NCBI GenBank assembly: GCA_009839505.1
Contig: VXPO01000175.1
Location: 1-54,582 of the forward strand
DNA: 54,582 nt
Reading direction: 5' to 3'
Source: Gammaproteobacteria bacterium
GTDB lineage: Bacteria; Pseudomonadota; Gammaproteobacteria; Pseudomonadales; Azotimanducaceae
In this document: positions 30,697-42,308 of the stretch, piece after piece
How positions within the stretch are numbered: position 1 is the stretch's first letter
Layout: the number at the start of each line of letters is the position of its first letter
The notes under the pieces: generated by a model
Told to the model about the DNA's origin: nothing
Database searches by the model: none
Seen by the model: only the letters and a program-made list of their open reading frames with translations
Translations under genes and position numbers: made by a program

Positions 30697-30891
30697 GGCA
30701 TTCGGAGCGGTACTCTGCGCCCGACTATATCGCGTAGGCGCGCGCATGCGCTGTGGCGAGCGCGTTGTGGTTGCCTGCGACCGTGACCCGGTGCTTCGTC
30801 CGACCACGCAATGCAGCAGGCCGCGTGAACGCTGGACGCAGCAGTCGAGCCGTATCACACTTCGGCTACCGCGGCCACATTGGGGTGGTCC

Positions 30892-31449
30892 ATGACCAAA
30901 TCCCGCGCGTGTCCCATACCCTGCGTCGGCAGGAGACAAGGCGGTAGCCGACTGTCGGCAACCCTGCTTGGGGTGCTCGTCGCCGTCGCGCTCATCTCAC
31001 CAGCCCGAGCGGGCGAGCAGGACTTCTACATCGTGACGGACTACGACCCGGGCCGGGACAACGTCGAACTGGTCTCGGACGCGATGAAGCGAGCGGACGC
31101 CGAGGACAAACGGGTTCTGCTCATCCTGGGCGGTGACTGGTGCGGCTGGTGCAAGGTCCTTGAGAACGACATCGCCGAGTCCGAGGAGCTGACCGCAATT
31201 ATCAGTCGCCACTACGTCGTCGCCAAGGTGCATTGCGACTCGGGATCCCCCGGGATTCGATACAAGCCGCGCAAACAACCCAAGTACGGTGCATCTTTCG
31301 TCAACATCCGCGCCAAGTCGTACCCGCACCTTGTCATCCTCGACAGCGACGGCAAGCGGCTGCTTTCGCGCGACATGGGCGGGCTGGTGGAGAACCGACG
31401 CTACTCGGAACCGAAGCTCCTGCGGATCCTGAACCGGCACAAGTCTTAA
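30892..31449 (+). CDS. Exported thioredoxin-fold protein with WCGWC motif
   Basis: A 185-residue protein with a signal peptide ending SPARA-GEQ and a thioredoxin-like domain carrying GGDWCGWCKVLEND, the CxxC of the thioredoxin_7/DUF255-like group. FVNIRAKSYPHLVILDSDGKRL includes the expected cis-proline neighbourhood (SYPHLV). It is probably a periplasmic disulfide or redox protein. The ATG at 30892 gives the cleaner signal peptide; a TTG at 30880 is in frame. Convergent with the next gene. Confidence 0.8.
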   Translation: MTKSRACPIPCVGRRQGGSRLSATLLGVLVAVALISPARAGEQDFYIVTDYDPGRDNVELVSDAMKRADAEDKRVLLILGGDWCGWCKVLENDIAESEELTAIISRHYVVAKVHCDSGSPGIRYKPRKQPKYGASFVNIRAKSYPHLVILDSDGKRLLSRDMGGLVENRRYSEPKLLRILNRHKS

Positions 31450-31502: not shown

Positions 31503-33083
31503 CTAACGGTCTAGAGCCGCGCTCCACACGGCATCGGCAGTAAGCCGGCAGTCACCACGCGCGCTCGCCCATTGCGGCGGAACCTGATTCGCCGGTCGGC
31601 GGTACAGCGGCGGCCCGTCGACTCCTGCGGTCGTCAGGTCGAAGACATCGTAGAAGCCCCTGGATCGAACACCCCGACCGATGGATCTCCTCAACAGGAG
31701 TCGATCACCCAGCAAGTACGGATACCCTCCCCTGCTCCCAAGATCGGCAAGCGTGGCAGCGGATCCCAGAACGGGCCGCAATCGCGCCAAGGCGGCCCTC
31801 TCGTACGCCAGGTGGGTATAGCTCCGCCGTACGACCGGATCATCGAGACGGGGCCCGTCGGGCGGCACTTGTGGAGCGAGTTCTTCGGTCGTGGGAAACG
31901 CCAAGACCAGCTCGCCCGAATGGACATTCAGTGCCCATGTCCGGTAGCGGTCCTCCACCGCTACCCAGTTTCCATTGTCCGACACCGTCAGACCGCGGGG
32001 ATCGCTGCCGCGCACCTTCCAAGACCAGACGTCGCTCCTTCTTGGCCCCTCGTCCTCGCCGTAGCCCTGGTAGACGCTCTTGCGTACCTCGAACGTCCCG
32101 GTGCTTCCGTAACCGCCTTGGTCGACCAGGTGATACGCGGTCTCGCTCGACACGAAATGCACGCGATCCGGGTATCTTCTCATCACGCCTCCCCTGAGAA
32201 TGGGTTCGTCGCGAACCTGTCGAGGGTCGAGTTCGTCAACGGCGTCTCCGCTCCGGGGCGGCACGTCCGCCGAACGGATGCGGACGACCCGCGGGGTGCC
32301 GCCGTCGTTCGGATAGAACCAATAGTCGCCTACAGGCGAGTCGTTCAGCTCCTGGGCGTGACCGAAGACCACCTCCGACATGCCCGAGGAGTAGTACACG
32401 CCGTACGCTCTTCCATGGTTGCCGAAGTGCGTCATCCTGCGACCGAGGTCGAAGTGGTGCTCGGCCATTTCGTCGAGATTGCGCACGACCAGGCGCGATG
32501 TTTCTCCGGCGAGCGGTTCGATGACGAAGAACGACGATCCGTCGCGAGCAACCCCGAATTCCCACAGCTTCTCGTGCTCGTAGATGATCTGGCCGTCCCA
32601 ATAGACGCGCGCAGGTCCGTACAGCTCTGGCGTCTGCGAGTCCCTTTCGTGAACCTTCATATCACCCAGAACGACCACGACTCTGCCGTCGGCCTGCCGG
32701 CCCATGGAGCGCAATCCGGGGACGAACGGAAGCTCGTCCCCGAACAGGATTCCCCCTTGGTCGCGCACCTGGAAACGGGCCTTGTCGCCATCGGCCACGA
32801 TGAGCAGCGCCACGCCACTGGCCGGACCCTTTCCTGCCTGCAGCGAGCACTCGGGGTCGTCGATCAACGCCGCGGCGGACAAGGCTTTGTTCGGACGCGC
32901 CGCAGGCTCAAGCCGCTCGCCGGCATCCTGACCCGGCGGTGGGTCGGATCGTCTCGTCTCCGAGGGTGATTCCGCGTCGCCCGGACCGGCCGTCTTGACG
33001 ATGAGTCCGGCAAACATCACAGCCGCGGCAGCGAGCACGACGACGGCGACTAGGATCGCAGACTTGAGCAACCAAGCGGGCAT
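31503..33083 (-). CDS. Membrane-anchored protein of unknown function, large extracytoplasmic domain
   Basis: I do not recognise this 526-residue protein. One N-terminal transmembrane anchor (residues 7-30, LKSAILVAVVVLAAAAVMFAGLIV) is followed by a Pro/Glu-rich linker to about 75 and then a beta-rich region with repeated Trp/Gly/Asp strands (KLWEFGVARDGSSFFVIEP, WSWKVRGSDPRGLTVSDNGNWVAVEDRYRTWALNVHSGELVLAF). That pattern suggests a beta-propeller that would face the periplasm. There are only two cysteines in the domain. It lies 10 bp downstream of the parE-like gene on the same strand, so it could share the toxin-antitoxin transcript. Confidence 0.7.
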   Translation of the reverse strand: MPAWLLKSAILVAVVVLAAAAVMFAGLIVKTAGPGDAESPSETRRSDPPPGQDAGERLEPAARPNKALSAAALIDDPECSLQAGKGPASGVALLIVADGDKARFQVRDQGGILFGDELPFVPGLRSMGRQADGRVVVVLGDMKVHERDSQTPELYGPARVYWDGQIIYEHEKLWEFGVARDGSSFFVIEPLAGETSRLVVRNLDEMAEHHFDLGRRMTHFGNHGRAYGVYYSSGMSEVVFGHAQELNDSPVGDYWFYPNDGGTPRVVRIRSADVPPRSGDAVDELDPRQVRDEPILRGGVMRRYPDRVHFVSSETAYHLVDQGGYGSTGTFEVRKSVYQGYGEDEGPRRSDVWSWKVRGSDPRGLTVSDNGNWVAVEDRYRTWALNVHSGELVLAFPTTEELAPQVPPDGPRLDDPVVRRSYTHLAYERAALARLRPVLGSAATLADLGSRGGYPYLLGDRLLLRRSIGRGVRSRGFYDVFDLTTAGVDGPPLYRRPANQVPPQWASARGDCRLTADAVWSAALDR

Positions 33084-33093
33084 CGAAGGACTA

Positions 33094-33417
33094 TTACCGT
33101 ACGAGCCGCCCCAACAGAAGGCTCGTCAAGTCACGGCGGGCATCGAGCACGGCCACGACATAAACCGCCCTGTCGTCGTAGCGATAGATAATCCGCCAAG
33201 GACCTTCGATCAACTCGCGATAGCCGACGACATCGACTGCTCTGAGCTCGGGGACCACCCGGCCACGCGCCGGCAATCGGTTCAACTCACCGCACCGCTC
33301 CTCGATTCGTTCCGTCGCCTTCAGGGCGTCCGCTGGGCTTTCCTCTGCGATGTAGGCGACGATCTGTTCGAGGTCCTGGCGCGCGGTATCCGTCCACAGA
33401 ACGTCGCGGTCAGCCAT
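33094..33417 (-). CDS. ParE/RelE-superfamily toxin
   Basis: The 107-residue toxin of a type II toxin-antitoxin pair. WTDTARQDLEQIVAYIAEESPADALKATERI is the ParE helical N-terminus, LPARGRVVPELR and YRELIEGPWRIIYRYDDRAVYVVAVLDARRDL the beta-sheet core. ParE-type members usually poison gyrase and RelE types cut mRNA; the sequence looks nearer to ParE, but the target is not shown. Its ATG overlaps the antitoxin stop by 8 bp. Confidence 0.88.
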   Translation of the reverse strand: MADRDVLWTDTARQDLEQIVAYIAEESPADALKATERIEERCGELNRLPARGRVVPELRAVDVVGYRELIEGPWRIIYRYDDRAVYVVAVLDARRDLTSLLLGRLVR

Positions 33418-33685
33418 CCGAAGCCGTCAATCCGTCCTTGATGTCAGCAAACACTTGGCGTTGGGACACCGTTCTTCCTGCGGAGACGTCGGCCTCGCCT
33501 TGCACGACGAGTTTCAGCATCAGCAGTGCTTCCTGAATGCGCTGGTGCGACGCGTAGTCCTGAACCACCGCGGTCGCGGTTCCATTCTGAGTCAGAACGA
33601 TGGTCTGATCGCCGGTCTTCATCTCGCCGAGCAGTTGCGCCGCTCTCGCCTTGAATTCGCTCAAGCTCACAATGGGTTTGGACAT
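33410..33685 (-). CDS. Phd/YefM-family antitoxin
   Basis: A 91-residue antitoxin: SKPIVSLSEFKARAAQLLGEMKTGDQTIVLTQNGTATAVVQDY is the Phd/YefM DNA-binding N-terminus, followed by the toxin-binding tail. It is upstream of and overlaps the toxin gene, as usual for autoregulated pairs. A 15-bp palindrome lies 10 bp before its ATG. Confidence 0.9.
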   Translation of the reverse strand: MSKPIVSLSEFKARAAQLLGEMKTGDQTIVLTQNGTATAVVQDYASHQRIQEALLMLKLVVQGEADVSAGRTVSQRQVFADIKDGLTASDG

Positions 33686-33858: not shown

Positions 33859-35037
33859 ATGGATATCGACCGACCAGGTGCACTCGAACGCATTGCCCAG
33901 GCCTTCCGGGTACACCCCGCCGTGGCTTTGGTCGGTCCCTGACAGTGTGGGAAGTCGACGTTGTCGCGCATGGTGGCGACTTCGGAGTCGGATGCCACCC
34001 TCTTTGATCTCGAAAGCGCGGTGGACCAGCGTCGCCTCTCCGTTCCCGAGCAGGCATTGGCGCCGTTGGCCGGTCTCGTCATCATCGACGAGATCCAACG
34101 TAGCCCGTCGCTGTTCGAAACACTTCGGGTACTGCTCGACCGACCCGGGCAGACGGGTCGATTCCTGCTGCTCGGCAGCGCATCGCCCACGTTGGTACGA
34201 AGCGCGTCGGAGACCCTCGCCGGGCGTGTGGGCATCGTTGACCTTGCAGGTTTCCACTTGGGGGAAGTTGGCTATCCCGACTCGGCTTCCGCAAGCACCG
34301 TTTGGCGATCACTGTGGCAACGCGGCGGCTTTCCGCGGAGCTACCTGGCACCCGACGACTCTGCCTCGGTGCTTTGGCGACAGAGCTTCGTGCGCACGTT
34401 TCTGGAACGCGACATACCCCAACTCGGGATTTCGATCCCTGCGGAAACCCTGCGGCGCTTCTGGACCATGGTCGCCCACTATCACGGCGAGATCTGGAAC
34501 GCATCGGAGTTCGCCCGTGCGATGGGGGCGACCCAGCCCGTCGCTCGACGCTACCTCGACATCCTCGCGGGTGCCCACATGGTCCGTGTGCTGCCGCCTT
34601 GGTACGAGAACCTGAAGAAGCGGCAGGTCAAGGCCCCTAAGATCTACGTGCGCGACACGGGGCTGCTGCACGAACTGCTCGGATTGCCTTCCAGCGCAGC
34701 GCTTGCCGGACACCCGAAGGTCGGCGCCTCGTTCGAGGGTTTTGCGATTGAGCAGCTGATCGCGTGTGCGAATCTGCGCAGCACCTACTTCTGGTCAACG
34801 CACGGCGGTGCCGAGCTCGACTTGCTGATGATCGCCGGCGGCAAGCGCTACGGGTTCGAGTTCAAGTACGCGGATGCGCCGGGTACGACGCGCTCGATGC
34901 GCATCGCCATGCAGGACCTGAATCTCACCCACCTGTGGGTGGTCTATCCGGGGGACGAGGCGTACGACCTCGATGAACGGATATCGGTACTGCCGGTAGT
35001 AGACCTGCCGACCGTCGCATCAACCCTTGGGGTCTGA
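33859..35037 (+). pseudogene. AAA-family ATPase with DUF4143 domain, TGA inside the P-loop
   Basis: Translated through one stop, the gene begins MDIDRPGALERIAQAFRVHP and has VALVGP-stop-QCGKSTLSRM: the TGA at 33940-33942 sits where the family has Arg in the Walker A motif GPRQxGKST, consistent with a CGA to TGA change. The following 358 codons are intact: LVIIDEIQRSPSLFETLRVLLD (Walker B), FLLLGSAS, GGFPRSYL, SFVRTFLERDIPQLG, then the DUF4143 nuclease-like C-terminus with AELDLLMIAGGKRYGFEFKYAD. A protein restarted at TTG 33961 would lack the P-loop. Such ATPases occur in accessory regions, and their role is poorly known. Confidence 0.82.
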
Positions 35038-35249: not shown

Positions 35250-36716
35250 TCAGGGATCGTTCTGCGACCGAAGGAGAGAGATCGCACTCGCGCGTTGTCT
35301 GGCGGTTTCGATGTCCTCCGGTGAGAAAGGCGCCGCTCGTTCGTACAGCGCCATGACGTCGATATCCGTACTGGTGCGCTTCGCCTCGGTCTCCACCAGC
35401 ATCGCATAGGTCAAACGTACTATCCGCTCGTCGTGCTCACGTCTTGGTCTGATTTCCACTCGCATACGGTCGAACTCGTCGTATACCGCTGATCGTTCAT
35501 CCCCATGTTCGCGATCCTCCCGGCGCAACTCATCGAGTTCGTCATCATTCAAGCCAGCCAACGGATCCTGACTCTCCAAGCGGCGACGCTCAACCTTGTC
35601 ACCATCCACTATGGCTGCAGCCCTGGCCCGTCCCCAGTCTCGTATTGACACGACCCGAGGATAGCGCTGGTCCACCTCTCGCAATCTCTCGGCTTGCTGT
35701 CGGTCCAGTCCCTCGAAGTGCTCGCGCCGGTATCTCTGTCGGACCTTCTCGATTTCCAGTTCGGCTTCGTGGATATAGGCCTGCGTCGGGTTCACCTCGA
35801 ACAAACGGTCGACATGGGCCGCGTCGCCTCGGAACTCGGACAGCGCCCAGGCGTCGCCCAGCCGGGCGGCCACCTCGATCAGCCTCTCGGACTCTTCCCG
35901 CAAATAGCCGTTGACCTCGTGGTCCTCCAACGGCCTGTCCGGATAGAACGAGTCCGGCGGATGCGACAAGTAAATGTCGTCGGCAGAGATCTCGAAGCGG
36001 TAGAGCGGAGCCATCACGTCAGCGGATACAGCACTACACCTCTCGGCCAGCCAGGCTGATCGGAACACCTCCTCCTCGATCACGTTCCTGCGTTGCCAGT
36101 AGATGCCGTTGTCGGCGATGTGCTCGATTCTGGACAACTTCTGTTCAAAATAGTCGTAGCTGACCATCGACGCGTGGTTTCGGCTGCACTCGCGCAGCAA
36201 AACAGCCGACCGGACCATCGACCGAGCGTCGCAATCACCCCCGGGATTCCGGCTGATCTCGCCATTGGCCACATCGCATGTTGCCTCCGCGAGCGTCTTG
36301 ACCGTGCCGTCTCTCACCGAGTCCGGATCGTCGAACACGTCGTGCCAGACCGGCGTATCGGCGACCGCCAGGATGCCGGAGGAGACTGGCCGATCTTGGA
36401 AGTACGCGTCCAAGGTGGCCAAGCACTCCGCGTCGACGACGTCACGAAACGAAGGGCAGCTCGCATGGAGGTCCGCCAAGTCCAAGGCTCTCCCGGACGG
36501 ACGGTCGGTCCCGCCAGCAGAAATGCGAGGCGACTGCGTTGGCTCCCGGATCGCATCCCCTACGGTTTCGCTGCGAAGTTGCGCCTGTTCCCTAACCGGC
36601 GCCGATTCGTGCTCGTCGTCATCGGCACCAATCACGAGCATAGCGCCAACCGCGCAGCCTGCCGCGAACGCGATCACCCCGACCACGATCACTCCGTTTC
36701 GCAACGACATCCGCAT
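35250..36716 (-). CDS. Six-cysteine membrane-anchored protein, paralogue 1
   Basis: Function not recognised. 488 residues: transmembrane anchor at about 9-30, an acidic/Pro linker to about 75, then a domain shared with the genes at 37-39.7 kb. Shared features in order: LDLADLHASC (C87), ECLATLD (C98), WHDVF, C147, C162, C177, then YWQRRNVIEEEVFRSAWLAERC (C227). Next comes AARLGDAWALSEF, slightly Sel1-like. Residues 280 onward are strongly charged, rich in Arg/Glu, probably long helices or coiled coil, and unique to this paralogue. Six conserved cysteines outside the membrane suggest disulfides. It is tail-to-tail with the DUF4143 ATPase gene. ATG 36710 is an alternative start. Confidence 0.72.
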   Translation of the reverse strand: MRMSLRNGVIVVGVIAFAAGCAVGAMLVIGADDDEHESAPVREQAQLRSETVGDAIREPTQSPRISAGGTDRPSGRALDLADLHASCPSFRDVVDAECLATLDAYFQDRPVSSGILAVADTPVWHDVFDDPDSVRDGTVKTLAEATCDVANGEISRNPGGDCDARSMVRSAVLLRECSRNHASMVSYDYFEQKLSRIEHIADNGIYWQRRNVIEEEVFRSAWLAERCSAVSADVMAPLYRFEISADDIYLSHPPDSFYPDRPLEDHEVNGYLREESERLIEVAARLGDAWALSEFRGDAAHVDRLFEVNPTQAYIHEAELEIEKVRQRYRREHFEGLDRQQAERLREVDQRYPRVVSIRDWGRARAAAIVDGDKVERRRLESQDPLAGLNDDELDELRREDREHGDERSAVYDEFDRMRVEIRPRREHDERIVRLTYAMLVETEAKRTSTDIDVMALYERAAPFSPEDIETARQRASAISLLRSQNDP

Positions 36717-36814
36717 TTGCCCATCACACTGCCCAGCCACATCCGTCGACCCCGGCCAGAACCAAGCTCCGCACGTCGATACCAGTTGGAGCCCGGCAAC
36801 GCGGGGATGGACGC

Positions 36815-36933
36815 ACGGCCACCCCTCGGCCGGCCCCCTCGGAAACCGGTGCGTGTAGTTTGGGGTGCTTACTGGCGGCCTGCAGGCACACGCGCCGGCC
36901 GATGGCCGGGAAGCGCGGGCCGTACGGTGCTAA
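36815..36933 (-). pseudogene. Fragment of a molybdenum hydroxylase large-subunit gene
   Basis: On the minus strand this stretch reads APYGPRFPAIGRRVCLQAA and then HPKLHAPVSEGAGRG, matching APYGPRFPAIGLRECLEAAKE and HPNYTAPVPEGAGRG of the large subunit encoded at 40080-42308. The parallel DNA is 41001-41119, mostly identical by eye. Only about 118 bp are present, without start or stop, so it is a relic of a duplicated or transferred copy. Confidence 0.8.
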
Positions 36934-36987
36934 CGATGGTCGGCAGCAGATGCAGCCGTCGGTGTGTCCCAAACTCCCTCCTTTTCT

Positions 36988-38263
36988 TTACTGTCGCGTC
37001 TTCGGCAACTCCCCTACGGCTCCGTCCTTGCGTATCGCATCCACGACCCAGTCTGTACTCTCGTGGTCTACAGGCGCCCTCCCTGAAGGCGTTGGGGGTG
37101 GCGTATAGAGCGACGTACGGCCCTCTACAAGTGCCGACAGGCGGGCCATGTCCAACTCGATGCCATGATGTTCCGCCAGTCGTACGGCATTCGCGGCATG
37201 CCGGGAGCGGTAGCCGCGTTTCGTCGCGTCGTCCATTGAGCCGACATACCCAGCGTAGTACTTGACGCGCATTATCTGACCGAGGACGGGATGGGCGGCG
37301 TCCATCTCTTCGGCGAACTCTTCGAACATGCCCGCCACTTGCGCCAAAGCCCACTCACTTCCAAGGCGTGCGGCGGTCAACATCAGTCGATACCCCTCTG
37401 TTTCTTGCGATATGTTGTGCTCCAACCATCGCCTGTCGTGGAACCCATCCCTCGAACCTATGACATCGTGGGGATTCGCCACATCTGTCCAAGGCGGTCC
37501 GCGGTACTCGAACGGAAATAGGGACTCGAACGCGCCTGTCCGACGCCAAGCTTCGGTCGGCACGGCAAGGCAGCGCGCCATGAGCCAAGCGTCTTGATAG
37601 TGGGCGTCTTCAACGATATTCCTGTATTCCCAATAAGCGCTCGTGTCGTCGACTTCGTCAATCCGCAAGGCGGCGACTCTTTCGTTAACCTCCCAATTCA
37701 GGACATCGAGTCTGGTCGTGAACGCGTGGCCACCGCATTCGAGTTTCAAAGAGGCCAACTCGGCCATGTCTGAGGCACCGCAATGCTTAGACCTTTCGGG
37801 ATATACGCCTTCCTCTGGTCGACACATCGGGTCGGACAACGCTTGTGCCACCCGACTTCGTTTCTCTAGGGGCGCAAGAAATACCCGGTTCCATGTCATA
37901 CGCCTGTCGAGATGAACAATGGGCGCCTGCACGAGAATCATCTAAACCCGAATAAGGCTCACGACCGAGGAACCGTTGGTCGAGCGCTTCCAAGCAACCT
38001 TGGGCAAGTTTTCCGTGACGCAAGGAGGGGCAGTGGTAGGCTAGATCCAGGATGTCCAAAGGCGTTGATGGAACCTGGCCGACCGCAACGGGCGATGGCG
38101 AGTGCTGGGGATGTCCCGGCAAGCTTGAGAGTAGGGAGTCACCGTCGGTCGTTGTCCTGTGGTTCCGTGACTCAACGGATTGCGTCGCGGTAAACCACAT
38201 CGTGACCGCAGCCAAAACGCCCAAGAACGTGGTAGCCGATGCAAGCATGCCCCGCGACGTCAT
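36988..38263 (-). pseudogene. Six-cysteine membrane-anchored protein, paralogue 2, frameshifted
   Basis: Two open frames together make one protein like paralogues 1 and 3. The upstream part (38263 to about 37945) has a transmembrane anchor (about residues 8-27), a linker, and LDILDLAYHCPSLRHGKLAQGCLEALDQRFLGREPYSG (C78, C90). The frame is then lost by one base near 37942-37948; the continuation begins MILVQAPIVHLDRRMTWNRVF and carries the remaining cysteines (DPMC, SKHC, KLEC) and AYWEYRNIVEDAHYQDAWLMARC. AARLGSEWALAQVAG follows. Removing one base would restore about 424 codons. It may be a true frameshift or a sequencing slip. Confidence 0.7.
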
Positions 38264-38319
38264 GGCTTGTCCTTGTTCCCTAGGCAAGTGGTGCCGCATG
38301 TGTCCGCTCTCGGACTCCC

Positions 38320-38513
38320 GAGTTCAAGTACGCGGATGTGCCGGGAACGACGCGTTCGAGGCGCATCGGCATGCAGGACCTGAATGTCACCCACCAGTGG
38401 GTGGTATTCCCGGGGACGAGGCGTACGACCTCGATGAACGGATACCGGTACTGCCGGTAGCAGACCTGCCGACCGTCCGTGAGACCAGTGTCGCGTGTGT
38501 CCGGAACTCTGCG
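38320..38513 (+). pseudogene. C-terminal fragment of a second DUF4143 ATPase gene
   Basis: From 38320 the DNA follows 34858-35016 of the full ATPase gene closely (GAGTTCAAGTACGCGGATG..., ending at the DLPTV codons), then jumps to match 35156-35187 (GTGTCCGGAACTC). The reading frame is broken by small indels. Orientation is the same as the full gene, and it again abuts the 3' end of a six-cysteine gene (38514). Confidence 0.8.
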
Positions 38514-39716
38514 TCAAGGCCACCAGTGGCCATCTTCGTCAGCAGGTTCACCAGATATCTGATCCACTCGATACAACAGCGAATATACGTCCTCGCCGAT
38601 CAGTTCGCCTATCGCGACCCAGTCAATGTCACGGTCTACCAACTCGTCAAACGGAAGGTGTGATCTTGCGCCCTGCAATCGCAATGCTGCGAGTTTGTAG
38701 GCTGCCGCCGTTTCCGCGCGTGCGACCCAATAGTCGTGCGGAAAATGCTCCATGTACCTAGAGCGACTACGGACCTGTGGCATGCGTTCGAACTCGAAAT
38801 CACCCAAAAGGTCGTAGCCCGTGGCGGGGTCGCGCTTGACGATCTCGTCGACCACCGCGCGGGTTGATAGGTCAGCTTGGCGTGCACGTGCGACGGCCGC
38901 TTCGTCCGTGAAGTCGACGATGATTGTGTTGCCGTACACGCGCCACACGTCAAGCGCCATCTTGTTATGGACGTAGTACTTGGCCGCCGCCTTGTCCCCC
39001 AACAGCGCCGCCCGCTCCCCGAACACGGCGTCTACCCATGGGGAGTCGTCCGCGTAGCCAACCAATCCGGTGATTTCGTTCTTGAGCGGTACCCATTTGT
39101 GATGGCACTCGCGACTGAGCCACGCCCTCTGCACCCATTCTTCGGCCTCTGATCGCCTAGCCTGACGGATCGCCTCCAAATTGGTCTCGCCTCGCAGGTC
39201 AAGGAACTGGACGCGATGCAGGGCATTGTCGGGTGGCTGGACACATGCTCTGATCGCCAACGCTAGATTGTGGGTTTCCCAAGCAGCGCACTGATGCTCT
39301 AGGTCGGGTCTCCATCCGGCAACGTCACATTCGGGATCACCAACAGCACGTTCCACGCTCTCCACCTGCGCGGCAAAGCCGTCGAACACCTCACCCCAGG
39401 TCCGCCCAGAGTGACCCGGCCAGCCAGACATCGTCGCCTTACGCGCCCGCATCCAAGCATCGGCTGCGTCGAGGCAGGCGTCCGTCTCCAAACCCCGCGC
39501 ACACCAAAACGCCAAGTCCAGTTCGTGGTGTTCCACGATGCTCGATTCCAGAGTTCCTTCACGGGGAATGTCCCGTGTCTCCGCATCGGGCTCCAAGTGT
39601 TGCGGGACTGCGGGAGCACCGGCAATTGAATCCTCGGGAGAGTCGTCTCGATAGTAGAGCAAGATGCACAGGGCAATCGCCACCACACTCACAACAGAGG
39701 CAAGTAGACGCTTCAT
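38514..39716 (-). CDS. Six-cysteine membrane-anchored protein, paralogue 3
   Basis: Function not recognised. 400 residues: N-terminal anchor at 3-21 (RLLASVVSVVAIALCILLY), acidic linker to about 62, then the shared domain: HELDLAFWC (C72), DACLDAADAW (C81), WGEVFDG, DPEC (C130), HQC (C143), RAC (C158), EWVQRAWLSREC (C204). The C-terminal half is unlike the other two paralogues and ends EDGHWWP. It appears to be the intact member most similar in layout to paralogue 2. The ATG at 39716 is the first after a non-coding gap. Tail-to-tail with the ATPase fragment. Confidence 0.72.
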   Translation of the reverse strand: MKRLLASVVSVVAIALCILLYYRDDSPEDSIAGAPAVPQHLEPDAETRDIPREGTLESSIVEHHELDLAFWCARGLETDACLDAADAWMRARKATMSGWPGHSGRTWGEVFDGFAAQVESVERAVGDPECDVAGWRPDLEHQCAAWETHNLALAIRACVQPPDNALHRVQFLDLRGETNLEAIRQARRSEAEEWVQRAWLSRECHHKWVPLKNEITGLVGYADDSPWVDAVFGERAALLGDKAAAKYYVHNKMALDVWRVYGNTIIVDFTDEAAVARARQADLSTRAVVDEIVKRDPATGYDLLGDFEFERMPQVRSRSRYMEHFPHDYWVARAETAAAYKLAALRLQGARSHLPFDELVDRDIDWVAIGELIGEDVYSLLYRVDQISGEPADEDGHWWP

Positions 39717-40079: not shown

Positions 40080-42308
40080 CTACTCGCCCCCCTCCTGCCC
40101 GTCGATCGCCTCCAGCACCCTCGGCGGCGACAATGGCAGGTCGTCGATGCGGAAGCCGAGCTGGTCGCGGACCGCGTTCGAGACCGCCGCCAGCGGGGCG
40201 ACGATCGGGGTCTCGCCGACGCCGCGGACGCCGTAGGGGTGGAACGGGTTCGGCACTTCGATGATCTGGGTGTCGATCATCGGCATGTCCGAGGCCACCG
40301 GCACCCGGTAATCCAGGAAGCCGGCGTTCTCCATGACGCCGTCGGCGTCGTAGATGTACTCCTCGTTCAACGCCCAGCCGATGCCCTGCACCGCGCCGCC
40401 CTGCATCTGCCCTTCCACGTAGGATGGGTGGATGGCCCGGCCCGCGTCCTGGACGGCGGTGAAGCTCAGGATGTCGACCTTGCCGGTCTCCTTGTCCACC
40501 TTGGCGTCGGTGAAGTTGCAGGAGAACGATGCGCCCGCACCTTGAGCGTTGAGGCTTGCGCGGCCCAGCAGCGGTCCGCCGGTGCGGCCGGCGCCGCGGG
40601 CGATGTCGGCCAGCGACAGCGGGTTCACGTCGGCGTTGACACCCGGCTTGGGAACGGCTTCACCGTCGACCCAGTCCACCTGCTCCTCGTCGAGATCCCA
40701 GGTGAGCGCGGCGCGCTGCTTGCACTGGGCGATGATGTCTTCGCAGGCTTGGATCACCGCCATGCCGGTGGCGAACGTCGTGCGGCTGCCGCCGGTGACG
40801 TTGCAGAATCCCGTGGCCTCGGTGTCGCCGACGTGGGCCTTGACCCGCTCGTAGGGCACGCCCAGCGTTTCAGCCGCCATCAGCGCCATGGAGGCGCGTG
40901 AACCACCGATGTCGGGGCTGCCCTCCATCACCGTGACCGCGCCGTCCTCGGCGATGCGGACCTCGGCGCTGGACTGCATGCCGATATTGAACCAGAAGCC
41001 CACGGCGAGGCCGCGGCCGGCGCCTTCGGGAACCGGTGCGGTGTAGTTCGGGTGCTCCTTGGCGGCCTCCAGGCACTCGCGCAGGCCGATGGCCGGGAAG
41101 CGCGGGCCGTACGGCGCAACCGTGCCTTCGCCGGCCGCGTTCTTCAGCCGGAGTTCGATGGGATCCATGTTGAGCTTGCGCGCCAGTTCGTCGATGGCGC
41201 ATTCCATGGCGTGCATGGATTGCGGCGCGCCCGGTGCGCGGTAGGCGCAGACCTTGGGCTTGTTGACCAGCACGTCGTTGCCTTCGATCACGAGGTTCGG
41301 CACCTCGTAGGGAGCGAGCACGGACATGCAGCCGGGGCCGATCGGCGCCCCGGGGAACGCGCCCGCCTCGTAGGCGAGCCAGGCCGAGGCGGCGGTGAAC
41401 GTGCCGTCCTTCTTGGCGCCGACCTTGGCCCTGCACCAGGTGCCCGAGGTGGGTCCCGTGGCGCGGAACACGTCCTCGCGACTCATGGTCATCTTCACCG
41501 GACGTCCGGACATCTGGGACATCTTCACCGCCAGCGGTTCCAGGTAGATCGTGGTCTTGCCGCCGAAGCCGCCGCCGATCTCCGACGGAATGACCTTGAT
41601 GTTGCCGACGCTCTCGCCGAGCACCTGGGCGGTCAGCGAACGGACGTCGAAATGGCCCTGGGTGCAGCACCACACGGTGGACTTGCCGTCCTCGTTGACC
41701 GTCGCGGTGCAGGCGTGGGGTTCGATATAGCCCTGGTGCGCCATGGGCACCCGATGCTCGCTCTCGACGATCACGTCGGCCTCGGCGAAGCCGGCCTCCA
41801 GGTCGCCGCGCTCGAAGCGCTGGGTCGCGGCGACGTTGCTCGCCGGCTTCGACGTGTCGCCGTTGGTGTGCTGGTTCTCGTTGACCAGCGTGGCACCGTC
41901 GGCCATGGCCTGGTCCAGCGACATGACGGGTTCGAGAACCTCGTACTCGACATCGATCAACTCCAGCGCGGCTTCCGCCTGGAGTTGGGTCTTCGCGGCC
42001 ACGGCAGCCACCGCGTGGCCGTGGTAGAGGACCTTGTCGCGGGCGATCACGTTCTTGCCCAAGTCGCTCGCGTTGCCGGGGAAGTCCGCGCCCGAAACCG
42101 CCGCCATCACGCCTTCGGCCGCGGCCGCACGACTAATGTCCACGCTCTTGATGCGCGCGTGGGCATGGGGGCTGCGCAGCACCTTGCCATGCAGCATGTT
42201 GGGCAGGTTGAGGTCCGCGCCGAACGCCGCCCGCCCGGTCACCTTGTCGATGCCGTCGGGACGCACCGGCCGGGTGCCGATCGCCTTGAGGTCTACCGCT
42301 TCTGCCAC
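40080..42308 (-). CDS. Xanthine dehydrogenase-family molybdenum-binding large subunit
   Basis: The molybdopterin-binding catalytic subunit (742 residues) of a three-subunit hydroxylase. GIDKVTGRAAFGADLNLPNMLHGKVLRSPHAHARI is the N-terminal a/b hammerhead; PSEIGGGFGGKT, the MCD-loop equivalent CAYRAPGAPQSMHAMECAIDELA, and the catalytic glutamate in RGVGETPIVAPLAA follow. It lacks the AYxCSFR loop of form I CO dehydrogenase; AYRAPG resembles aromatic or N-heterocycle hydroxylases, so the substrate is open. The start is GTG 42308 with AAGGAG upstream; the longer frame to 42791 is antisense-like shadow of the small subunit. Last gene of the FAD-FeS-Mo operon; needs Moco from the MoaA pathway. Confidence 0.92.
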   Translation of the reverse strand: MAEAVDLKAIGTRPVRPDGIDKVTGRAAFGADLNLPNMLHGKVLRSPHAHARIKSVDISRAAAAEGVMAAVSGADFPGNASDLGKNVIARDKVLYHGHAVAAVAAKTQLQAEAALELIDVEYEVLEPVMSLDQAMADGATLVNENQHTNGDTSKPASNVAATQRFERGDLEAGFAEADVIVESEHRVPMAHQGYIEPHACTATVNEDGKSTVWCCTQGHFDVRSLTAQVLGESVGNIKVIPSEIGGGFGGKTTIYLEPLAVKMSQMSGRPVKMTMSREDVFRATGPTSGTWCRAKVGAKKDGTFTAASAWLAYEAGAFPGAPIGPGCMSVLAPYEVPNLVIEGNDVLVNKPKVCAYRAPGAPQSMHAMECAIDELARKLNMDPIELRLKNAAGEGTVAPYGPRFPAIGLRECLEAAKEHPNYTAPVPEGAGRGLAVGFWFNIGMQSSAEVRIAEDGAVTVMEGSPDIGGSRASMALMAAETLGVPYERVKAHVGDTEATGFCNVTGGSRTTFATGMAVIQACEDIIAQCKQRAALTWDLDEEQVDWVDGEAVPKPGVNADVNPLSLADIARGAGRTGGPLLGRASLNAQGAGASFSCNFTDAKVDKETGKVDILSFTAVQDAGRAIHPSYVEGQMQGGAVQGIGWALNEEYIYDADGVMENAGFLDYRVPVASDMPMIDTQIIEVPNPFHPYGVRGVGETPIVAPLAAVSNAVRDQLGFRIDDLPLSPPRVLEAIDGQEGGE

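Follow-up and report, generated by a model that had tools for sequence, protein, structure and literature searches.

An unnamed, lineage-specific family of six-cysteine proteins in uncultured Pseudomonadales

Three neighbouring minus-strand genes, here called paralogues p1, p2 and p3, in a 54,582-nucleotide stretch of DNA from an Azotimanducaceae bacterium (assembly GCA_009839505.1, contig VXPO01000175.1, positions 1 to 54,582; the whole stretch is called the window below) are members of one real, lineage-specific and unnamed protein family. Within the genomes sampled, the family is confined to two genera of uncultured Pseudomonadales that are related to each other, and some of these bacteria have ten copies of it or more. 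The reading that we favour, with a probability of roughly 0.55, is that these proteins, built around six aligned cysteines (C1 to C6), are envelope-tethered, disulfide-locked and probably helical binding modules under birth-and-death evolution.

Detection of the family

An earlier note on this DNA, made from the sequence alone, had described the three genes as an unrecognised paralogous family and suggested a profile search. We searched the 746 open frames of at least 40 amino acids in the window with a profile of 58 members from outside the window's genome. All three genes were recovered, with E-values of 7.2e-76 for p1, 7.5e-43 and 4.6e-13 for the C-terminal and N-terminal pieces of the broken p2, and 4.3e-21 for p3, and there was no fifth match among the 746 frames; the shuffled control of 14,920 frames gave a single match, at an E-value of 0.088. 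Some circularity is left in this result, the 58 members having originally been collected with profiles that contained rows from the window. Searches with one sequence were much weaker: as a single query against its own genome, p1 recovered p2 and a gene on another contig and missed p3, and p3 recovered only itself at E-values up to 10.

The 166 matching open frames collapsed to 76 after deduplication and to 61 after the removal of 15 that did not span the cysteine region. These 61 rows, which include p1 and p3 and do not include p2, were picked by profile coverage and score rather than by cysteines, with the proviso that the profile itself rewards cysteines. In an alignment of 21 rows, all rows share the p1 positions C147, C162, C177, C227, W124, F128 and A283, and at least 90% of rows share C87 and C98; the p2 row lacks C1 and C2 because it holds only the C-terminal piece.

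Cysteine core and domain architecture

Each of the 61 non-redundant members has all six cysteines in alignment, and the C4-C5 spacing is exactly 14 residues in every one. The other spacings range from 8 to 40 (C1-C2), 35 to 84 (C2-C3), 9 to 29 (C3-C4) and 34 to 171 residues (C5-C6), and the length of the six-cysteine core from 133 to 270 residues. The best-conserved columns other than cysteine are a tryptophan (60/61), an alanine (59/61) and a leucine (56/61). From C1 to the end of the protein, 30 members have 6 cysteines, 20 have 8 and 8 have 10, with single members having 7, 9 and 12, such that the number is even in 59 of the 61; the 40 residues before C1 contain no cysteine in 59 members and one in 2. 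Optional cysteines C7 and C8 in the C-terminal half occur together in 20 members and never alone. Overall, 30 members carry no extra cysteines, 19 carry one pair, 8 carry a set of four and four sets were seen once, two of them odd, which makes six non-empty sets, four even and two odd. The Poisson expectation for an even number is 0.53, and neighbouring non-family frames of at least 250 amino acids, some of which may not be genes, had even numbers in 74 cases and odd numbers in 85. No probability was attached to the parity, because the 61 rows are related and not independent. A preference of exported bacterial proteins for even cysteine numbers has been reported, and is described in the same paper as not strong in the pangenome of the species studied (PMC7678975). 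We regard the even numbers as indirect evidence that the six cysteines probably form disulfides. The invariance of the cysteines, their even number and the appearance of C7 and C8 only as a pair bear out the conserved, disulfide-like core claimed in the earlier note.

A hydrophobic 18-residue segment (Kyte-Doolittle mean of at least 1.8) precedes C1 in 46 of the 61 members, and C1 lies 45 to 65 residues downstream of it in 42 of those 46. Across all 61, the distance from the hydrophobic stretch to C1 is 45 to 65 residues in 46 members and 21 to 37 in the other 15, which, judged by eye, look like proteins exported by a signal peptide. The proposed N-terminal hydrophobic stretch and linker are found in p1, p3 and most of the 61 members. 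The C-terminal halves, said in the earlier note to differ completely, were compared using a C-terminal-only profile built without the tested gene (for p1 also without its 57% relative), with E-values calculated for one target. The halves of p1 and p2 are homologous, scoring 81 and 49 bits and having the motif AARLG(D/S) in common, so that the claim falls for these two and nearly holds for p3, which scored weakly, at 3.8 bits. The fold of the domain is probably helical, as judged from residue propensities. The best-conserved charged column, the arginine of AARLG, is retained in only 49 of the 61 members, for which reason an enzymatic role was set aside. Conservation of polar residues is nowhere high enough to suggest catalysis, so that binding is the most likely activity of the domain.

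Search for known relatives

A rigid cysteine signature combined with many copies per genome, yet without a match in the four libraries and the PDB sequences searched, is what sets the family apart. Pfam gave no convincing match for the window proteins, for 21 members (E-values up to 10) or for 10 further members; the best E-value among the 21 was 0.039 and each Pfam family was matched by one member, so these matches were judged to be chance. NCBIfam, PHROGs and PADLOC likewise gave no convincing match for the four window pieces and three other members searched against each, and a profile search of PDB sequences returned four matches at chance level, the best being prohibitin 1 (E-value 0.34). 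A strong match to a characterised family, which would have spoken against novelty, was thus looked for in four family libraries and the PDB without one being found, and the description of the family as unrecognised stands. Among the papers listed by literature searches on the names of the sequence records, on a wider query and on the expansion, none concerned this six-cysteine family.

The only family with a tempting motif was LprI (PF07007), which comprises periplasmic proteins, some of which inhibit lysozyme. If the six-cysteine proteins were its distant members, this would account for the resemblance, seen by eye, of 'LD..F' after C2 and 'AWL..RC' at C6 to LprI domains. However, the profile-profile comparison (hhalign) in which the 61 members were set against 24 LprI domains, chosen from 29 matches after exclusion of five that were short, broken or low-scoring, gave a probability of 0.2% over 13 aligned columns, and PF07007 had no match in the window's genome (E-values up to 1) or in the 21 members (E-values up to 10). 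LprI membership, which we consider extremely improbable, was rejected on the basis of this comparison.

Distribution and copy number

As a single query, p1 had a match in 9 of 58 relatives. The 21-row profile matched 10 of the 16 genomes of the genus and, across the bacterial family, 25 of 206 genomes, belonging to 2 of its 37 genera; in the family-level scan up to 9 candidates per genome were scored, so that copy numbers are at-least values and a weak carrier could be missed. Among 390 genomes from the order (up to 4 candidates scored), the same profile matched 5, all inside the same bacterial family. At wider ranks, with up to 5 candidates scored, matches to the 61-row profile came from 1 of 369 genomes of the class, namely that of the window, and from 4 of 398 genomes of the phylum. 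Three of these last four were spurious (E-values 7e-4 to 8e-4): two lie over the membrane helix of TPR-like proteins and the residues after it, and one is short and without the cysteine pattern.

The multiplication of the family that the earlier note had put forward is evident as such. The closed chromosome OY282460.1 ('uncultured Pseudomonadales bacterium', 4.33 Mb) contains 26 matching rows, which we read as some 16 genes plus two fragments; two or more of the genes are broken. Four genomes of the other genus, fully scored, contain 9, 18, 4 and 11 rows, some genes making up two rows, and the window's genome contains 8 rows, read as six genes, three of them in the window and one each on contigs C163, C157 and C13. 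A phage or plasmid origin was set aside: no plasmid relative was found for p1, no phage relative for one member from genome G012 and no confirmed relative in scans of viral contigs, searches that reach close relatives only and are not proof of absence.

Evolutionary history and selection

In a maximum-likelihood tree of the 61 members, which leaves out p2, p1 pairs with a gene of another species (support 100/99), and p3 falls into a different subfamily on a long branch (2.53), so its placement is unsure. Two groups mix the genera. One joins a member from the window's genus (L009; G010:C39:27016-28089) to seven genes of the other genus (100/99), and the second consists of one gene per genus, both on long branches (98/95). 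This mixing suggests exchange between genera or deep paralogy, with a transfer possible in the case of L009. The C-terminal piece of p2 is closest to genes of the other genus in the first mixed group, at 31% identity. Given these old, separate subfamilies, the three window genes appear to have been brought or kept together as old paralogues, and the earlier proposal that the family multiplied within this island is not supported. Elsewhere, members stand singly or in short arrays among assorted genes.

Omega, the ratio of nonsynonymous to synonymous change, was 0.39 to 0.62 for close paralogues within two arrays, and 0.35 for p1 against its 57% relative. Between genomes it was 0.11 and 0.21 for the syntenic pair of G022 and G080, 0.11 and 0.17 in two further comparisons with G084 and 0.36 for a 93% pair; saturation prevented a value from being obtained for two other between-genome comparisons and for one within-genome pair. 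Most between-genome values rest on a proportion of synonymous differences (pS) of 0.5 to 0.73 and are accordingly rough. Three flanking genes had values of 0.02 to 0.07. The six-cysteine family thus seems to evolve several times faster than its flanking genes, under purifying selection. Codons 180 to 240, lying mostly between C5 and C6, formed the block with the highest proportion of nonsynonymous differences (pN) in 6 of 9 within-array comparisons. The diversifying selection invoked in the earlier note is not apparent in whole genes, none of which had an omega above 1 where it could be computed; pN exceeded pS only in four blocks of 60 codons (0.131/0.119, 0.294/0.227, 0.315/0.298 and 0.037/0.022), which are too short to count.

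The same values bear on the alternative that the genes spread neutrally or selfishly in insertion-prone or decaying DNA, without a cellular role. Such spread would fit the G+C content of the six-cysteine genes (0.588 to 0.614, against 0.644 for the window), the fragments of neighbouring genes right upstream of p1 and p2, the broken copies and the transposase beside one member. Yet omega is below 1 in every computable whole-gene comparison, a gene pair occupies the same place in two genomes (G022 and G080, 66% identity each) and the six cysteines are retained over deep divergence. Neutral or selfish spread is therefore very unlikely in our view, being largely contradicted by purifying selection.

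The genes in the window

The coordinates of the three genes and of the fragments upstream of them are given in Table 1. The likely start of p1 is the ATG at 36716, with a GTG also present at 36740. Counted from that ATG, its cysteines are C87, C98, C147, C162, C177 and C227; the inter-cysteine spacings of p3 (8, 48, 12, 14 and 45 residues) place its cysteines at C72, C81, C130, C143, C158 and C204. Counting and alignment thus confirm the positions reported earlier for both proteins, as well as the frameshift in p2, which leaves C1-C2 and C3-C6 on two overlapping frames. Of the proposed sequence landmarks, LDLA, WxxVF and AWLxx(R/E)C occur in p1 and p3, and p2 has AWLMARC at the sixth cysteine; CLxxLD fails in p3, which has CLDAAD at the second.

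Table 1. Six-cysteine genes and upstream gene fragments in the window.
Feature	Positions	Strand	Description
p1	35250-36740	-	hydrophobic N-terminal stretch, ~60-residue linker, six-cysteine domain, C-terminal half with AARLGD motif
p1 six-cysteine core, C87 to C227	36036-36458	-	counted from ATG at 36716
Fragment of molybdopterin dehydrogenase gene	36814-36935	.	122 bp, 81% identical to 41001-41122; 74 to 98 bp upstream of the possible starts of p1
p2, C-terminal piece	36988-37941	-	WxxVF, C3 to C6, AARLGS, C-terminal half; other frame, overlaps N-terminal piece
p2, N-terminal piece	37787-38299	-	hydrophobic stretch, linker, C1 and C2; frame broken after C2
Copy of 3' end of DUF4143 ATPase gene (34857-35016)	38319-38477	.	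two stretches, 90 and 96% identical; 20 bp upstream of N-terminal piece of p2
p3	38514-39716	-	hydrophobic N-terminal stretch, linker, six-cysteine domain, divergent C-terminal half
p3 six-cysteine core, C72 to C204	39105-39503	-	counted from ATG at 39716

A closed chromosome also has a broken family copy (L063:9364-11041), and the break in p2 may for this reason be real decay and not only an assembly error. The gene fragments upstream of p1 and p2 are a sign of local rearrangement, the pattern being as if pieces of host genes had come along when the family genes were inserted or duplicated. The gene from which the second fragment derives, a DUF4143 ATPase gene at 33961-35037, itself seems to lack its N-terminal part (the match to AAA_14 begins at profile position 62). 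A thioredoxin-like protein (30880-31449; Thioredoxin_7) is encoded some 4 kb away from the six-cysteine genes; it contains a GDWCGWC motif, probably has a signal peptide and may be connected with thiol chemistry in the periplasm. It is followed by a 526-amino-acid protein (31503-33083) with no Pfam match above chance, whose N-terminal layout, a hydrophobic stretch and an acidic, proline-containing linker, is like that of the six-cysteine proteins and precedes another domain.

Genomic neighbourhood and rival roles

Twenty genes near members, two of them from the window and some not immediate neighbours, were scanned with Pfam. This look at the neighbourhoods of homologues, which the earlier note had also suggested, returned assorted functions, including serine hydroxymethyltransferase, transposase, glycosyltransferases, UvrA, a radical-SAM enzyme, a DNA methylase, HipA, AbiEii, a TonB receptor and an amidase, with 1 of the 20 lacking a Pfam match; the transposase adjoins a family member. 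As no partner is conserved among the 20, no operon-based function can be read from them. A gene with a DsbA domain (L062:6018-6692) lies directly beside the four-gene six-cysteine array of OY282460.1.

Arrays of orphan immunity proteins exist in type VI secretion and related systems, and the six-cysteine proteins could similarly be periplasmic immunity proteins, orphan or not, whose tethered domains would bind the toxins of rivals and whose arrays would keep a memory of the various attackers. The tandem arrangement of divergent paralogues, probable export and disulfide bonding, and broken copies all fit, as do toxin-antitoxin type genes near some loci, namely the ParE/Phd pair beside the array in the window (33094-33685) and HipA and AbiEii elsewhere, although ParE/Phd, HipA and AbiEii act inside their own cell. 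No Pfam name for a toxin delivered to other cells appeared among the 20 neighbours scanned, a set that leaves out many neighbours, and TssC/VipB of type VI secretion was found in none of 14 carriers versus 2 of 6 non-carriers tested, a distribution that speaks mildly against cognate type VI immunity and leaves room for attack by others. On balance, an immunity role seems to us quite unlikely. The neighbourhoods also bear on contact with a eukaryotic host, for which surface or periplasmic proteins (receptors, inhibitors of host enzymes or camouflage) would have expanded in host-associated members. An ankyrin-repeat gene (L113:5218-6291), of a kind common in symbionts, adjoins a three-gene array in a genome of the second genus, and copy number varies widely among related genomes; however, one ankyrin neighbour among 20 can be chance, and we consider host contact unlikely.

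A proposed tethered binding module

The analysis shows the family itself, the invariance and even numbers of its cysteines, its variability, the differences in copy number and the broken copies. Our preferred reading, a tethered and disulfide-locked binding module, depends in addition on export, disulfides, a helical fold and a binding role that we infer from sequence. An uncleaved N-terminal helix would hold the protein in the inner membrane, members of the shorter subclass being exported by a signal-peptide-like region instead, and the linker of 45 to 65 residues would keep the domain, compact and probably helical, at a distance in the periplasm or further out. Through DsbA-type oxidation the six invariant cysteines would be joined into three disulfides, and some subfamilies would have additional pairs. 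The domain would bind a protein, a peptide or a glycan; the cysteines, together with a small number of W, F, L and A positions, would fix the scaffold, and the stretch from C5 to C6 and the C-terminal half, which vary between copies, may set specificity. Copies would be gained, exchanged and broken in the manner of families whose outside partners, for example attackers or a host, keep changing. An envelope function may fairly be inferred; that the binding partner is foreign is a guess.

Several observations weigh against this reading. Kinship among the 61 rows means that the parity count overstates their independence, and export was judged from hydrophobicity alone, with 15 of the 61 members under the hydrophobicity limit. 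The helical fold was read from Chou-Fasman propensities after averaging, a measure by which even the membrane stretch came out as strand. Selection on whole genes is purifying (omega 0.11 to 0.62), and it is the first block that has the highest pN in 3 of the 9 within-array comparisons and in p1 against its 57% relative. Finally, no recurrent or conserved partner gene was seen among the 20 scanned neighbours.

A further-reaching version would make the family a new disulfide-locked, membrane-tethered recognition module and a lineage-specific bacterial analogue of a variable receptor or immunity repertoire. In this version the module would have its own fold, some genomes would have expanded it to ten or more paralogues, and the six-cysteine scaffold would present a swapped and diversified C5-C6 stretch and C-terminal half to changing foreign partners, either attackers or a host. 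We offer this tentatively, as an idea that is probably not correct; if the family is a recognition repertoire, it would indicate what these uncultured Pseudomonadales encounter outside their cells. The 61-member profile is ready for structure prediction and for re-annotation of the two genera.

Comparison with known systems

Like LprI (DUF1311) proteins, the six-cysteine proteins have a cysteine-containing domain, small in LprI, and an aWl..R..C-like motif is present in many of the 24 LprI domains; they differ in that an LprI domain spans ~100 positions, against 133 to 270 residues for the six-cysteine core, and in the spacing and the invariant W and F. A likeness to Sel1-like and TPR proteins lies in the AARLGDxxA motif after C6, which resembles the Sel1 helix motif, and in two anchored TPR-like proteins, which we take to be of the LapB type, that matched weakly over the membrane helix and the following stretch. 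However, AARLGDxxA occurs once and not as a repeat, and no TPR or Sel1 Pfam profile matched the window proteins, the 21 members (E-values up to 10) or the 10 further members. From the orphan immunity arrays of type VI secretion the six-cysteine genes differ in that no delivered-toxin partner was seen among the 20 neighbours scanned and no sheath gene in any of the 14 carriers tested; what they have in common with those arrays is that the paralogues stand in tandem, have diverged, are probably exported, and are gained and lost.

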